64,000 nucleotides of DNA, from assembly GCF_001007935.1 (NCBI RefSeq), contig NZ_CP011451.1, positions 992,001-1,056,000 of the forward strand, read 5' to 3'. The notes under the pieces were generated by a model. It was not told the DNA's origin, searched no databases, and worked only from the letters and a program-made list of their open reading frames with translations. The translations under genes were made by a program, and so were the position numbers. Of this stretch, positions 55,784 through 64,000 are shown one piece after another (positions within the stretch are counted from its first letter, which is position 1; each line of letters opens with the position of its first letter). Origin of the DNA: Nitrosomonas communis. GTDB lineage: Bacteria; Pseudomonadota; Gammaproteobacteria; Burkholderiales; Nitrosomonadaceae.

Positions 55784-56640
55784 ATTTACAGATGACCTAT
55801 CCGATATTATTTCGCCATAAAGTATTATCCGTTCGTGAGAAGGAGAACCTCTCAATCGCGCAAGTGGCCAAGCGTTTTGGTGTAGGGGTCGCCAGCGTGA
55901 TGCGTTGGATCAAAACTCCCGATCCCAAGACCACCCGCAACAAACCTGCCACCAGGATCAACATGGAAATGTTGGCGCAGGACATCAAGAATTATCCGGA
56001 CGCGTATCAGTACGAGCGCGCCAAACGGTTGGGTGTCAGCAAGCAAGGCATTAACCATGCTTTAAAGCGTCTGGGCGTGACTTATAAAAAAAAGCCTGTG
56101 TCACCCCAAAGCCAGCGAAAAAGAGCGGCGTATCTTCCAGCAAAAAATTGAAGACTATGAGCGAGCAGGCCGCGTTATCGTCTACCTTGATGAAAGCGGC
56201 TTTGCGCACGACATGCCACGCACGCATGGCTATGCGCCAGTGGGTGAGCGCGTCCATGGCGTAAAAGACTGGCATGCACGAGGTCGAACCAATGTGATTG
56301 GCGCCCTGATCGGAAAGACGCTGCTGACTATAAGTCTGTTCATCGCCAATATCACCGCTGACATTTTCTATGCGTGGATAACGCAGGACCTGTTGCCTAA
56401 ACTTTTGCCCGCTTGCGTGATTGTCATGGACAACGCAACCTTTCATAAACGGCAGGATATCCAAACCGCCATTGCCAATGCCGGGCATACACTTGAATAC
56501 CTGCCGCCTTATTCCCCTGACTTAAATGACATTGAACCCAAATGGGCTCAGGCCAAAGCCATCAGAAAAAAGGAAGGTTGTTCCATCGAGCAGCTCTTTG
56601 CCGCTTATGAAATTTAAATCATTTTATATGGGATCTGCTA
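55757..56640 (+). mobile_element. IS630 family element, copy c
   Basis: The left end TAGCATGTCCCCTATAAATT and right end (reverse) TAGCAGATCCCATATAAAAT bound one transposase. It is directly followed by copy d, which has no left repeat of its own. Confidence 0.9.
55792..56617 (+). pseudogene. IS630 transposase, copy c, one-base frameshift
   Basis: The gene is identical to copy d except for a few bases. At about 56084-56091 it has eight A's where copy d has seven, which shifts the frame after GVTYKKK. The rest reads on in the next frame (GRVIVYLDESGFAHDMPRTH, VIVMDNATFHKRQDIQTAIA, YLPPYSPDLNDIEPKWAQAK) to 56617. Restoring one base would restore the protein; the catalytic Glu of YLDES is present here but is Lys in copy d. 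Confidence 0.9.
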
Positions 56641-57498
56641 TAATTTACAGATGACCTATCCGATATTATTTCGCCATAAAGTATTATCCGTTCGTGAGAA
56701 GGAGAACCTCTCAATCGCGCAAGTGGCCAAGCGTTTTGGTGTAGGGGTCGCCAGCGTGATGCGTTGGATCAAAACTCCCGATCCCAAGACCACCCGCAAC
56801 AAACCTGCCACCAGGATCAACATGGAAATGCTGGCGCAGGACATCAAGAATTATCCGGACGCGCATCAGTACGAGCGCGCCAAACGGTTGGGTGTCAGCA
56901 AGCAAAGCATTAATCATGCTTTAAAGCGTCTGAGTGTGACTTATAAAAAAAGCCTGTGTCACCCCAAAGCCAGCGAAGAAGAGCGGCGTATCTTCCAGCA
57001 AAAAATTGAAGACTATGAGCGAGCAGGCCGCGTTATCGTCTACCTTGATAAAAGCGGCTTTGCGCACGACATGCCACGCACGCATGGCTATGCGCCAGTG
57101 GGTGAGCGCGTCCATGGCGTAAAAAACTGGCATGCACGAGGTCGAACCAATGTGATTGGCGCTCTCATCGGAAAGACGCTGCTGACCATAAGTCTGTTCA
57201 TCGCCAATATCACCGCTGACATTTTCTATGCGTGGATAACGCACGACCTGTTGCCTATACTTCTGCCCGCTTGCGTGATTGTCATGGACAACGCAACCTT
57301 TCATAAACGGCAGGATATCCAAACCGCCATTGCCAATGCCGGGCATACACTTGAATACCTGCCGCCTTATTCCCCGGACTTAAATGACATTGAACCCAAA
57401 TGGGCTCAGGCCAAAGCCATCAGAAAAAGGGAAGGTTGTTCCATCGAGCAGCTCTTTGCCGCTTATGAAATTTAAATCATTTTATATGGGATCTGCTA
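56641..57498 (+). mobile_element. IS630 family element, copy d (left repeat missing)
   Basis: Copy d starts at TAATTTACAG directly after copy c and ends GGATCTGCTA before TATGTCACGG of the ISL3 gene. The 27-bp left end is absent. Confidence 0.9.
56651..57475 (+). CDS. IS630 transposase, copy d, full-length frame
   Basis: The 274-residue protein has an HTH (SVREKENLSIAQVAKRFGVG) and a DDE domain: VIVYLDKSGFAHDMPRTHGY (first Asp), CVIVMDNATFHKRQDIQTAI (second Asp) and YSPDLNDIEPKWAQAKAIRK (third acidic site). The frame depends on a seven-A run at 56943-56949. It is the only open copy of four in the window. The Lys in YLDKSG, where copy c has Glu, may affect activity. Confidence 0.92.
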   Translation: MTYPILFRHKVLSVREKENLSIAQVAKRFGVGVASVMRWIKTPDPKTTRNKPATRINMEMLAQDIKNYPDAHQYERAKRLGVSKQSINHALKRLSVTYKKSLCHPKASEEERRIFQQKIEDYERAGRVIVYLDKSGFAHDMPRTHGYAPVGERVHGVKNWHARGRTNVIGALIGKTLLTISLFIANITADIFYAWITHDLLPILLPACVIVMDNATFHKRQDIQTAIANAGHTLEYLPPYSPDLNDIEPKWAQAKAIRKREGCSIEQLFAAYEI

Positions 57499-61148: not shown

Positions 61149-62504
61149 TGTAGAGAACAAATAAACTGTCCGGACTTGTAGCAAATGATCTGTCCGGTTT
61201 ATATGGAATCCTGGGAGGATTTCAGATGAAACGGACAGAATGGCTACAGGAGACCAGGAAGATGAGATTTGAAGAAGCGTATGAAAGCTATAGAAAAAGG
61301 AGCCTTACGCAATCGGAAGCGGCGTTATTGCTTGGAGTATGTGATCGCACATTCCGGCGCTATATGAACCGGTATGATGAGGATGGTTTGGATGCGTTAT
61401 TAGATAGGCGTCTTGTGCAGGTATCACACCGACGGGCACCAGTAGATGAAGTCATGCGGTTGGTCGAGCACTATCGCAATCGCCACATGGGTTGGAATGC
61501 CAAGCACTTCTATGCCTGGTATCGTTCTGGCGGTGGTAATCGCAGTCATACGTGGGTTAAAAACCGGCTACAGGAAGCCGGACTGATTGAACATACCAAG
61601 AAGCGAGGCACGCACCGTAAGAAGCGTGAGCGGGCTCCTTTGATTGGTATGATGATTCATCAAGATGGCAGTACGCATGAATGGGTTTTGGGACAGAAAT
61701 GGGATTTGATTGTCACGATGGATGATGCCACCAGTGAGCACTACTCGATGTTTTTCGTTGAGGAAGAAAGCACTATGAGCAGCTTCCAGGGCGTACAGGA
61801 AGTCATTGAGAAGCACGGGTTATTTGCCTCATTTTACTCCGATCGTGGCAGCCACTACTGGTACACGCCAGAAGCAGGAGGCAAGGTTGACAAACAGAAT
61901 CTCACTCAATTTGGACAGGCCATGAAACGATTAGGAATCGAGATGATTGCAGCCTATTCGCCAGAAGCACGCGGACGCAGTGAACGCATGTTTCGCACGC
62001 ACCAGGAACGTCTGCCTAAAGAACTAGTATTAGCTGGGATTACCGATATGACAGCAGCTAATCGGTATCTGAAAGAAGTCTATATGCCTACTTTCAATGC
62101 CGAGTTCGTACAACCGGCATCCGAGGAAGGTAGTGCTTTTGTACCATGGATTGGTGGAGAGCTTGCGGACATCCTCTGTGAGCGTCATGAGCGCGTTGTT
62201 GGCTATGATAACTGTGTTAGCTTTGAAGGTTTAAAGCTTCAAATCCCGGCAGATCGTCATCGCTGCCATTATGTGAAAGCAAAAGTCATCGTACTGCGCT
62301 ATCCAAATGGACAAATAGCTATCACGCACGGCCCAAGGAAGCTTGCGACATATGATTCGTCTGGCAAGGAAATAAAACTGAACAGTACAGTTGTTGCGTA
62401 AATCCGCCGCCACAACTGCGCAATGAATTAATAGACAATTCATTGCGTTTCAAAGTGGACAATTTATTTGCTACAAAACCGGACAATTCTATTTGTTGCT
62501 AACA
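61149..62504 (+). mobile_element. ISNCY (IS1202-like) element with 15-bp target duplication
   Basis: The ends TGTAGAGAACAAATAAACTG and (reverse) TGTTAGCAACAAATAGAATT continue into matching TGTCCGG and TTTGTAGCAAAT repeats. ACACCAGTAGCCATA occurs exactly at both flanks (61134-61148 and 62505-62519). Length 1356 bp. Confidence 0.9.
61226..62401 (+). CDS. ISNCY family transposase
   Basis: The 391-residue protein has an HTH start (LTQSEAALLLGVCDRTFRRY) and a DDE core: DLIVTMDDATSEHYSMFFVE (first Asp), FASFYSDRGSHYWYTPEAGG (second Asp) and SPEARGRSERMFRTHQERLP (Glu). A C-terminal beta-rich domain follows. The ATG follows CTGGGAGGATTTCAG. It is intact, and with its sharp target duplication it may be a recent arrival. 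Confidence 0.92.
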   Translation: MKRTEWLQETRKMRFEEAYESYRKRSLTQSEAALLLGVCDRTFRRYMNRYDEDGLDALLDRRLVQVSHRRAPVDEVMRLVEHYRNRHMGWNAKHFYAWYRSGGGNRSHTWVKNRLQEAGLIEHTKKRGTHRKKRERAPLIGMMIHQDGSTHEWVLGQKWDLIVTMDDATSEHYSMFFVEEESTMSSFQGVQEVIEKHGLFASFYSDRGSHYWYTPEAGGKVDKQNLTQFGQAMKRLGIEMIAAYSPEARGRSERMFRTHQERLPKELVLAGITDMTAANRYLKEVYMPTFNAEFVQPASEEGSAFVPWIGGELADILCERHERVVGYDNCVSFEGLKLQIPADRHRCHYVKAKVIVLRYPNGQIAITHGPRKLATYDSSGKEIKLNSTVVA

Positions 62505-62519
62505 ACACCAGTAGCCATA

Positions 62520-63739
62520 CTGCGTGAATTTATTGCTCGAATTGGTTCATTTAAACCTTTCTATATAATATTTAATGGTTGTAGTTATGCACACCCAAAA
62601 TCAGTGCTACAGCTTAGCGAATGGCTTGAGGCTGGACACTACTCATCTTTAAATTATTGAAACGTTTGTTGTTTAGATAACGCTTAGTCGATAGTCATAT
62701 TAATAATACGGTTTCGGTACGCAATTGTTATTTCTCCCGATTCCTCAGTAAGCAGTTGTGTACCGGTTTCTCATCATGGCCTTTTCAAGATGCATAATTG
62801 TTTTGTTCCTTTTATACCCTTTTACTACCTTGTGCACCTTTTTTTGGTGCATTGTGCACACCCCCCAATCAGCGCTACAGCATAACGTTTGGCTTGAGGC
62901 CAAGAACAGCTCATCAATAAATCATTGAAACTTTTATCGTTTTTGTAGTTCTTATTGTTAACTCTTTGCTAAAAGGGTTACGGTACACAGCTATAAATTT
63001 ATAGCCTCTTGTCGTTATAGTTGTGTACCAGACTTTCATAGTTATGATCTTTTGATGTGGTGCACATGTGAATATCTCCCCTCTTCACTTTGTGCACCCA
63101 TTTTTTAATTTTCGTGAAAATATGTTGCATTTGCAAATGAAAACAATTATCATTTGCACATCCATTGTTAAAAAAGAGCATGGGTATAAACCTGCAACCC
63201 TCCTCTCTCCTTGTTATACAGGTACGTATCGGCTCCTCAATGGATATTTTCCTCCCATGGTGCACATTGTTTCTCTCTTATCTTTTCTTTGTGCACCATT
63301 CTTCTATTTAAAAAATAATTCATAACGTTTTCCTTATTTGTTCATTACAAGCTTTTACATGTACCTTAGTACAATGGAATAAAGCATGCATAAAGTTGGA
63401 TAATTTACTTGTAGCGCTTGAGCTACTGATTTTGTTTCGTGAAGTGCATATTTACGAAGCTGAGTCATTTAATTTGTACCCATTGTTGAAGTATTTTGAC
63501 GGTGCATAATTGCAGACATTGCTGGGAGGATTTTGTGATTTTGCACCGTCATTTTTTAAATTGTTGCAGAATACTCTTTCATATATCTCTAAATTGGGTG
63601 CTTGGTGCAAAAAAGTAAAAAGGAACGACAGCAGAGAGATAACAATAAGCAATTCATAAGAAAAAATTTCATAAAGTGATCCTTATTTATTAACCACAAA
63701 TTTTAAGGGTTATTGAATTCGTCATCGAATCTATCCCAG
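62520..63739. other. Noncoding tract with an array of long inverted repeats
   Basis: About 1.2 kb has no supported gene. At least six imperfect inverted repeats of 30-54 bases with GGTRCAC/GTGYACC ends lie at 62715-62765, 62831-62860, 62981-63030, 63059-63098, 63257-63299 and 63497-63551. A block starting TGCACACCC and containing GCTACAGC and GGCTTGAGGC is present twice (about 62587-62665 and 62855-62935). It lies downstream of a rolling-circle-type replication gene, so a replication, packaging or recombination role is possible. Confidence 0.6.
62981..63030. repeat. Strongest inverted repeat of the array
   Basis: GGTACACAGCTATAA and TTATAGTTGTGTACC pair over 15 positions with one mismatch around an 18-base loop. 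The inner CTATAAATTTATAG is itself a perfect palindrome. Confidence 0.85.
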
Positions 63740-64000
63740 TCAGGAGGAGAAAACTGGTTTAAGCTCGACGACGTGAACCTTGGTGGGGAATTTAGTGACG
63801 TTGCACGGTTCGGTTATATCAAGACCATATTCACGTAGAATCTTGGCGTGTCGGTAAAGGGTTCCGTTTGACATGATGGTACGTAAATCTTCACCTGCCA
63901 ACCAAGCGGCAGCCGTCATACGGTAGCGAGTAGGTATAGAATCTAGTATGTCGGTCATCGCTGCGAACAACACGGCGGAAAATCTCGGTTTCTGATGCGA
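63740..64000 (-). CDS. Phage/plasmid replication protein, gene II/X type, C-terminal part
   Basis: The frame runs off the window. The visible 86 residues read RFSAVLFAAMTDILDSIPTR, AAAWLAGEDLRTIMSNGTLY and RHAKILREYGLDITEPCNVT, ending KVHVVELKPVFSS. This matches the C-terminal region of gene II/X-type rolling-circle replication initiators of filamentous phages and related plasmids. The catalytic region lies outside the window, so function is inferred from the tail alone. Confidence 0.72.
   Translation of the reverse strand, partial: SHQKPRFSAVLFAAMTDILDSIPTRYRMTAAAWLAGEDLRTIMSNGTLYRHAKILREYGLDITEPCNVTKFPTKVHVVELKPVFSS

Follow-up and report, generated by a model that had tools for sequence, protein, structure and literature searches.

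Three tandem copies of a structure-conserved element, probably small RNA genes, in an inovirus remnant of Nitrosomonas

The hairpin array at positions 62520-63739 of the window (the whole 64,000-nucleotide stretch analysed, bases 992001-1056000 of a 4.07-Mb single-contig genome) is most probably part of an inovirus remnant in which a structure-conserved, multi-copy element is present three times in tandem; the copies are likely small regulatory RNA (sRNA) genes read from the + strand. A family of sRNA genes is the simplest account because the fold is strand-specific, the hairpins have a T-rich side, an upstream motif recurs, and copies are found in three kinds of location. The host, an ammonia-oxidising Nitrosomonas, shares the region with Nitrosomonas communis Nm44 and Nitrosomonas sp. 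Nm34. The features that define the locus are these:

61226..62401, + strand: ISNCY-family transposase gene adjoining the array (342 bits, cut-off 250)
63661..63704, minus strand: 3' end of the rep remnant, present again in diverged form at 63312-63355
63740..64000, continuing beyond the window edge, minus strand: inovirus gene II/X replication protein, C-terminal remnant (PF05155, E 1.9e-9)

Judged by its sequence, the locus is a leftover of a filamentous (inovirus) prophage. The rolling-circle replication gene that the original prediction placed beside the hairpins does belong to the gene II/X family; what survives of it is only the C-terminal remnant, whose match is interrupted by stops. The idea of an inovirus-like element gains from Nm44, where the array lies between a Rep with G2P N- and C-terminal domains and a gene for Inovirus coat protein B. 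The order on one strand at that locus (L017) is RstB-like protein, Rep, array, Inovirus coat protein B, further genes and a Zot-family gene, the match to the last being split across two frames. The inovirus order of gene II/X Rep, coat protein and Zot-family gene is found complete in L017; the window keeps the Rep remnant only. The ISNCY element occupies the side of the window array on which the coat gene would be expected, and the coat side has been lost. In the corresponding Nm34 contig, C134 (L018), the sequence stops within the coat gene. The right-hand part of the window consists largely of insertion sequences (open reading frames judged by eye, two of them confirmed as members of the ISNCY and IS630 families); an IS630-family transposase region at 55792-57475 comprises two near-identical tandem copies, one of them split.

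A stem-loop counter finds 8 stem-loops in 62520-63739 against 1.50 in 60 dinucleotide shuffles (sd 0.94, maximum 3), which upholds the earlier report of at least six inverted repeats; a stricter score gives 4 against 0.18, and single-strand DNA folding of 62560-63340 yields a z of -5.24 (20 shuffles). The particulars given at that time also hold: the 15-position stem with one mismatch is 62982-63029, its mismatch being a G-T pair; hairpin 63497-63551 has its perfect 10-bp end stem; and the duplicated blocks of ~80 bp are 62594-62674 and 62862-62942, 75% identical. Hairpin 63126-63164 is a Fur-box-like palindrome, and hairpin 63497-63551 belongs to a separate module that is also found alone near mdh. 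The array was described as free of genes, and in a minus-strand frame, left open in a relative, substitutions are indeed not in excess at third positions in any of four comparisons (27, 26, 26 in the window against 39, 14, 89 in the rep gene, which served as control); a protein-coding reading was rejected on this ground.

Most hairpins of the array fall into three tandem units at 62.7-63.3 kb. On the + strand of the window (the phage rep and coat genes are on the other strand), a unit reads hairpin B' (GGTACAC..GTGTACC), hairpin A' (GGTGCAC..GTGCACC) and a T-rich tail, with a small hairpin ahead of B' in most units. It was recognised by aligning five arrays and by searching for the hairpin ends across genomes. 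Twelve aligned copies (alignment A3) preceded model R2, with which the genomes of the genus were searched, and alignment A4 adds further copies and leads to model R3.

62715..62852, + strand: unit U3; B' 62715-62765, A' about 62790-62840, T7; 94 bits with R2, 89.4 with R3 (U3 trained both); aligned in A3
62981..63112, + strand: unit U2; B' 62982-63029, A' 63059-63098, T6; 103.7 bits with R2, 93.3 with R3
63182..63312, + strand: unit U1; B' from about 63184, A' 63257-63299, T-rich tail; 108.5 bits with R2, 102 with R3

Units also occur away from inoviruses. A solitary B'-A' pair lies just downstream of lipA (TIGR00510) in the source genome and in Nm44, convergent with lipA, and the same B' is present in Nm34. 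With R2, units were found in temperate prophages as well: one near a CI-like repressor gene in the source genome and one in Nm34 beside RecE, RecT and CI genes, the latter with another copy in tandem that can be seen by eye; R2 also located a second inovirus remnant, in genome G077, with a Rep end adjoining. R3 has 30 hits, distributed over 5 of the 85 Nitrosomonas genomes; 23 of them, in 4 genomes, reach 50 bits (source 6, Nm44 6, Nm34 10, G077 1); 16 of these 23 trained the model, 4 are close orthologues of training copies, and 3 are new places (source 2428803, Nm44 C71 and Nm34 C128). Seven further R3 hits were inspected, with two above 50 bits besides C128. The source genome, with 6 hits at 50 bits or more and 9 at E up to 0.01, has the several homologous copies that are looked for in sibling sRNAs. 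The single hit in the fifth genome (G070) resembles an unrelated 32-nt hairpin. The pattern GGTACAC..GTGTACC mostly finds a different hairpin of 32-35 nt, present in 1-3 copies in many Nitrosomonas genomes, and weak R2 or R3 hits in G075, G070, G023, G050, G062 and G065, which stand outside the strong count, look like this hairpin (several of them by coordinates or sequence). The GGTACACCGGCTGTCTTGCGACAGTGGTGTACC-type hairpin occurs in one to three copies per genome where it is found, in many Nitrosomonas (e.g., G033:C1:379069-379101).

Compensatory change was assessed in both alignments. Among the 16 copies of A4, 39 cells differ at both positions of a pair where shuffles give 14.4; double changes affect 12 pairs (6.9 in shuffles), and 90.0% of cells are paired, compared with 83.6% when shuffled and 20-52% when the pairing is slid; the number of pair types is not enriched (28 against 27.5 in shuffles). 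In A3 there are 20 double-changed cells against 7.7, distributed over 6 pairs against 4.5 (114 of 500 shuffles reach 6), and the pair types are not more numerous than in shuffles (18 against 21.3). Wobbles point to one strand: on the + strand G-T exceeds A-C by 19 to 7 in A3 (one-sided p 0.0145, for copies that are not independent) and by 10 to 1 in the A' arms of 21 copies, and because of this excess the strand that carries the CU-rich loops is taken to be the one that folds. Covariation and wobble asymmetry together constitute the conserved one-strand RNA fold that sibling sRNAs should have. Of 14 hand-picked loops, 13 are 66-91% pyrimidine, the mdh-type loop h8 standing at 45%; CTCC is found in 10 and CCTCC in 5 of these. 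When nine Nm44 phage genes were scored as pairing targets, none stood out (z from -2.3 to +1.6, the start of zot being an estimate).

The 14 nt that follow A' contain on average 8.42 T on the + side and 3.16 on the other, in a count of 19 A'-like hairpins that includes four of the mdh type and h8 and leaves the temperate-prophage copies aside. The original statement that terminators do not explain the hairpins must be qualified to this extent, that T-rich sequence follows the counted A' hairpins, and does so mainly on one strand. Terminator loops of 20 nt or more are unusual, and a terminator scan that allowed loops up to 8 detected none of the array hairpins. The temperate-prophage copies have other sequence, and no T-run, directly after A'; two of them (L301; Nm34 C128) have a GC-rich hairpin some 40-50 nt further on.

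The sequence upstream of B' is also shared. The following lines give the candidate promoter elements of the window units:

62660..62686, + strand: weak RpoE-like motif before U3; AAACGT-N15-CGCTTA, 8/12, no better than shuffles
62928..62954, + strand: predicted RpoE-like promoter of U2; AAACTT-N15-TTCTTA, 10/12
63125..63153, + strand: predicted U1 promoter; TTGCAT-N17-TATCAT by eye, overlapping the Fur-box-like palindrome 63138-63152 (12/14)

A motif GAACTT-N15/16-GTCTTA is matched at 10 or more of its 12 positions in 18 of 28 copies, against 3.75% of dinucleotide shuffles and 1 of 28 downstream stretches, figures to be read with the motif's origin in these same copies and the choice of its final form (scanned as N15..18) after all 28 had been seen. 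Its placement is nearly fixed: in 17 of these copies the motif starts between -52 and -57 relative to B', in one at -64, and all spacers are 15 or 16. A first, stricter regular expression matched 9 of 18 copies (0.45% of mononucleotide shuffles); a variant of it matched 2 of 7 newly fetched copies and the final form 5 of these 7, two of the five (source 2428803 and Nm44 C71) looking orthologous. The motif is lacking in 10 of the 28: the five U1 copies, U3 of the window, caudo_a, C92, own_3284252 and C128. Its -10 half (GTCTTA) resembles the -10 element of RpoE promoters. GGAACTT is given as the -35 box of E. coli RpoE (PMC8103513). The source genome encodes RpoE (330 bits, cut-off 236), and the best motif match in the 3.6-kb rpoE locus (10/12) starts 66 nt before the longest rpoE frame.

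Unit U1 is different. All five U1 copies match the RpoE-like motif at just 7-8 of 12 positions and have a Fur-box-like palindrome instead, at 12/14 in four of them and 14/14 in Nm34 C134 (9-10/14 at six other loci); three of the five look orthologous. In the five-array alignment 17 of 20 columns of the palindrome are invariant, and the window match taken alone is near chance (2 in 64 kb, 0.72 expected). A sigma-70 scan reports no + strand promoter in the window and does find the L017 counterpart of the U1 promoter, again overlapped by the Fur-like palindrome.

Searches for relatives beyond the genus returned little. The array and four other unit loci have no Rfam match at the gathering threshold; a scan of the window gave two matches below the threshold (E 1.2 and 4.6), and the one to tracrRNA overlaps the array. 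Assignment to a known RNA family was dropped, there being no match at the gathering threshold in the loci scanned and only a C4 RNA elsewhere: at L056:7172-7253, an Rfam C4 antisense RNA match lies upstream of an inovirus rep gene. By blastn, no relative of the array was seen among named phages and plasmids, and a Rep search of viral contigs likewise found none. The sole viral contig retrieved with a hairpin-with-CCTCC pattern (L305) was set aside when its hairpin was judged, on reading, to be coincidental. Among the papers that literature searches listed, none dealt with the array or with comparable Nitrosomonas sRNAs.

Ff-type inoviruses have several hairpins beside gene II in an intergenic region of about the size of the interval that holds the array (525 nt from Rep stop to coat ATG in Nm44 C114, 515 nt in Nm34 C134), and the array resembles that region in placing several hairpins next to gene II of a filamentous phage. 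The DNA folds well, the array sits inside the phage between rep and coat in the two fuller prophages, and the original prediction named replication-initiator, packaging or single-strand recombination sites. Such hairpins should be present in phages of the same Rep family, and whether they always accompany gene II/X rep genes was among the checks proposed with it. Rep homologues are present in 25 of the 125 genomes of the family; of 22 Rep-coat intervals judged by eye (that of L070 ends short of its coat gene), only C114 of Nm44 and C134 of Nm34 contain the array, and four further remnant loci (the window, Nm34 C28, Nm44 C141 and G077 C50) retain it wholly or partly. The 20 intervals without it include one in Nm34 itself (C62), 89 nt long, whose Rep is 87% identical. 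Absence beside homologous rep genes, named in the original prediction as a refuting outcome, is what most of these intervals show, and replication, packaging or recombination sites are not supported. Unlike the Ff region, the array is missing from most related intervals and its units exist outside inoviruses, beside lipA and near CI, RecE and RecT genes; for these two reasons it was rejected as a general replication or packaging array. The T-rich side and the wobble asymmetry, moreover, indicate the strand opposite to the phage genes, so that cis-acting single-strand sites of the phage (minus- or plus-strand origins or a packaging signal) are quite unlikely to be what the hairpins are.

A repeat of the REP or MITE type, spreading through the genome and making no RNA, would account for the number of strong copies (6 to 10 per genome in three genomes, several in prophage regions) and for hairpins with similar ends. 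It would not be expected to keep an upstream motif at nearly fixed distance in copies that have diverged, or a strand-specific wobble bias and a T-rich side, and we consider it rather unlikely. The one-sided T-rich sequence is also what plain terminators would have if they halted antisense or convergent transcripts in a densely packed phage genome, with B' incidental, and the copy that lies just after lipA and converges on it fits that notion. B' is nevertheless conserved and covarying in its own right (7 of its 14 pairs in A4 have double changes), and the upstream motif recurs; terminators of this sort are a very unlikely explanation, marginally behind phage cis sites in our estimation.

If the units are sRNA genes, each would start at its RpoE-like promoter, U1 instead at a Fur-controlled one, and the RNA would end at the A' hairpin or slightly past it. 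The UCUCC or CCUCC loops may pair with Shine-Dalgarno regions of host or phage mRNAs, and with siblings under two promoters, iron limitation and envelope stress would feed the same kind of RNA. For the position of the array between rep and coat one can only guess at a reason: control of the coat gene or of a host envelope gene during phage secretion. A tentative scenario, to which we give limited credence, is that a filamentous phage captured stress- and iron-controlled sibling sRNAs of its host and amplified them to 2-3 copies in tandem, placed between rep and coat on the strand opposite to those genes; as anti-Shine-Dalgarno RNAs they might set host envelope and iron metabolism, or the phage's own coat output, during secretion, and the family would have spread to temperate prophages of the same bacteria. 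Filamentous phage genomes measure a few kilobases. An sRNA block of ~400 nt, if that is what the array is, would imply that regulatory RNAs shared with the host are carried by phages as small as these, and that ammonia oxidisers have an sRNA family, without Rfam match in the scanned loci, distributed across host loci and two kinds of prophage. A direct test would then be at hand, since RNAs of one kind would have an RpoE-like promoter next to lipA and a Fur-like one in the phage.

If the units act as proposed, their nearest described counterparts in function are the tandem sibling sRNAs NmsRA and NmsRB of Neisseria, which pair through UC-rich anti-Shine-Dalgarno stretches (PMC5362039). The likeness lies in tandem related sRNAs of a betaproteobacterium, with stem-loops exposing the UC-rich stretch and a predicted terminator; the Neisseria pair are two tandem chromosomal RNAs, whereas the predicted units number 6-10 strong copies in each of three genomes and one in G077, lie in prophages as well as host loci, and have RpoE-like or Fur-like upstream motifs. 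MicA, RybB and MicL are RpoE-driven sRNAs with the -35 box GGAACTT (PMC8103513); the comparison is with the promoter, not with sRNA sequence, and the use of RpoE at GAACTT-N15/16-GTCTTA is presumed. The Fur-like box over the predicted U1 promoter is comparable to that of NrrF, a Fur-controlled sRNA (PMC5586341), with the difference that the array and the four other unit loci lack an Rfam match above threshold. CisR also bears on a filamentous phage, as an RNA from a host 3'UTR that represses an mRNA of CTXphi (PMC13250501); it is host-encoded, whereas the predicted sRNA units are inside phages. A review of sibling sRNAs does not contain the words 'phage', 'mobile' or 'horizontal'.

The ~80-bp blocks upstream of U3 and U2 have a separate affinity on the minus strand, where they look like diverged copies of an element that directly precedes the coat gene in other Nitrosomonas inoviruses:

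62594..62674, minus strand: putative coat-leader variant E', second copy; its + strand is the U3 upstream region
62862..62942, minus strand: putative coat-leader variant E', nearer copy; its + strand is the U2 upstream region

This identification is suggested by position and by a reading of the fold; model R1 of the coat-leader element does not detect the blocks. The element itself (ATTYCAGC, a freely varying stem, GGTGCAATYYCGCACC) forms two hairpins that lie after the upstream stop codon and ahead of the coat gene (e.g., L055:7143-7195, L065:4549-4599 and other A2 loci). In 16 sequences 97.9% of cells pair, 51 cells are double-changed against 15.5 in shuffles, and G-T wobbles outnumber A-C by 19 to 1; the loci scanned have no Rfam match at the gathering threshold. 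Within the family, R1 has 21 hits, spread over 16 of 125 genomes; 20 lie no more than 700 nt from a Rep hit, and the remaining one is at G013:C57. In wider searches it matches 4 genomes out of 399 at the level of the order and 3 out of 398 at that of the phylum, G215 being in both sets. The element was at first taken as the likely source of the array, but R1 has no significant hit in the window or in the phages that carry the array (lowest E 2.2), so shared descent of the element and the array hairpins is unproven. Among 80 viral contigs listed by a pattern of the element itself, R1 has at least 15 hits of 30 bits or more in at least 14 contigs; the next open reading frames in ten R1-positive contigs are Inovirus coat protein B in 5, a beta-clamp in 1 and without Pfam family in 4. 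The beta-clamp case is L107:3751-3806, where the gene that follows the element has a DNA polymerase III beta-clamp domain. Two contigs carry the element twice (L142:502-553 and 768-818; L132:77-121 and 1675-1725), followed by open reading frames that are not coat-like, the second in L132 having no Pfam family match.

Between U1 and the rep remnant lies the module to which hairpin 63497-63551 belongs:

63360..63565, + strand: mdh-type module, a relative of those near mdh; TGTACCTTAGTACA, stem-loops, hairpin 63497-63551 and T6

The modules near mdh consist of CTGTACCTTAGTAC (in tandem in the chromosomal copies), then stem-loops and a T-run. Besides the relative in the window array, modules of this type are located at L004:7177-7400, L019:5040-5640 (two copies) and L020:889-1100.
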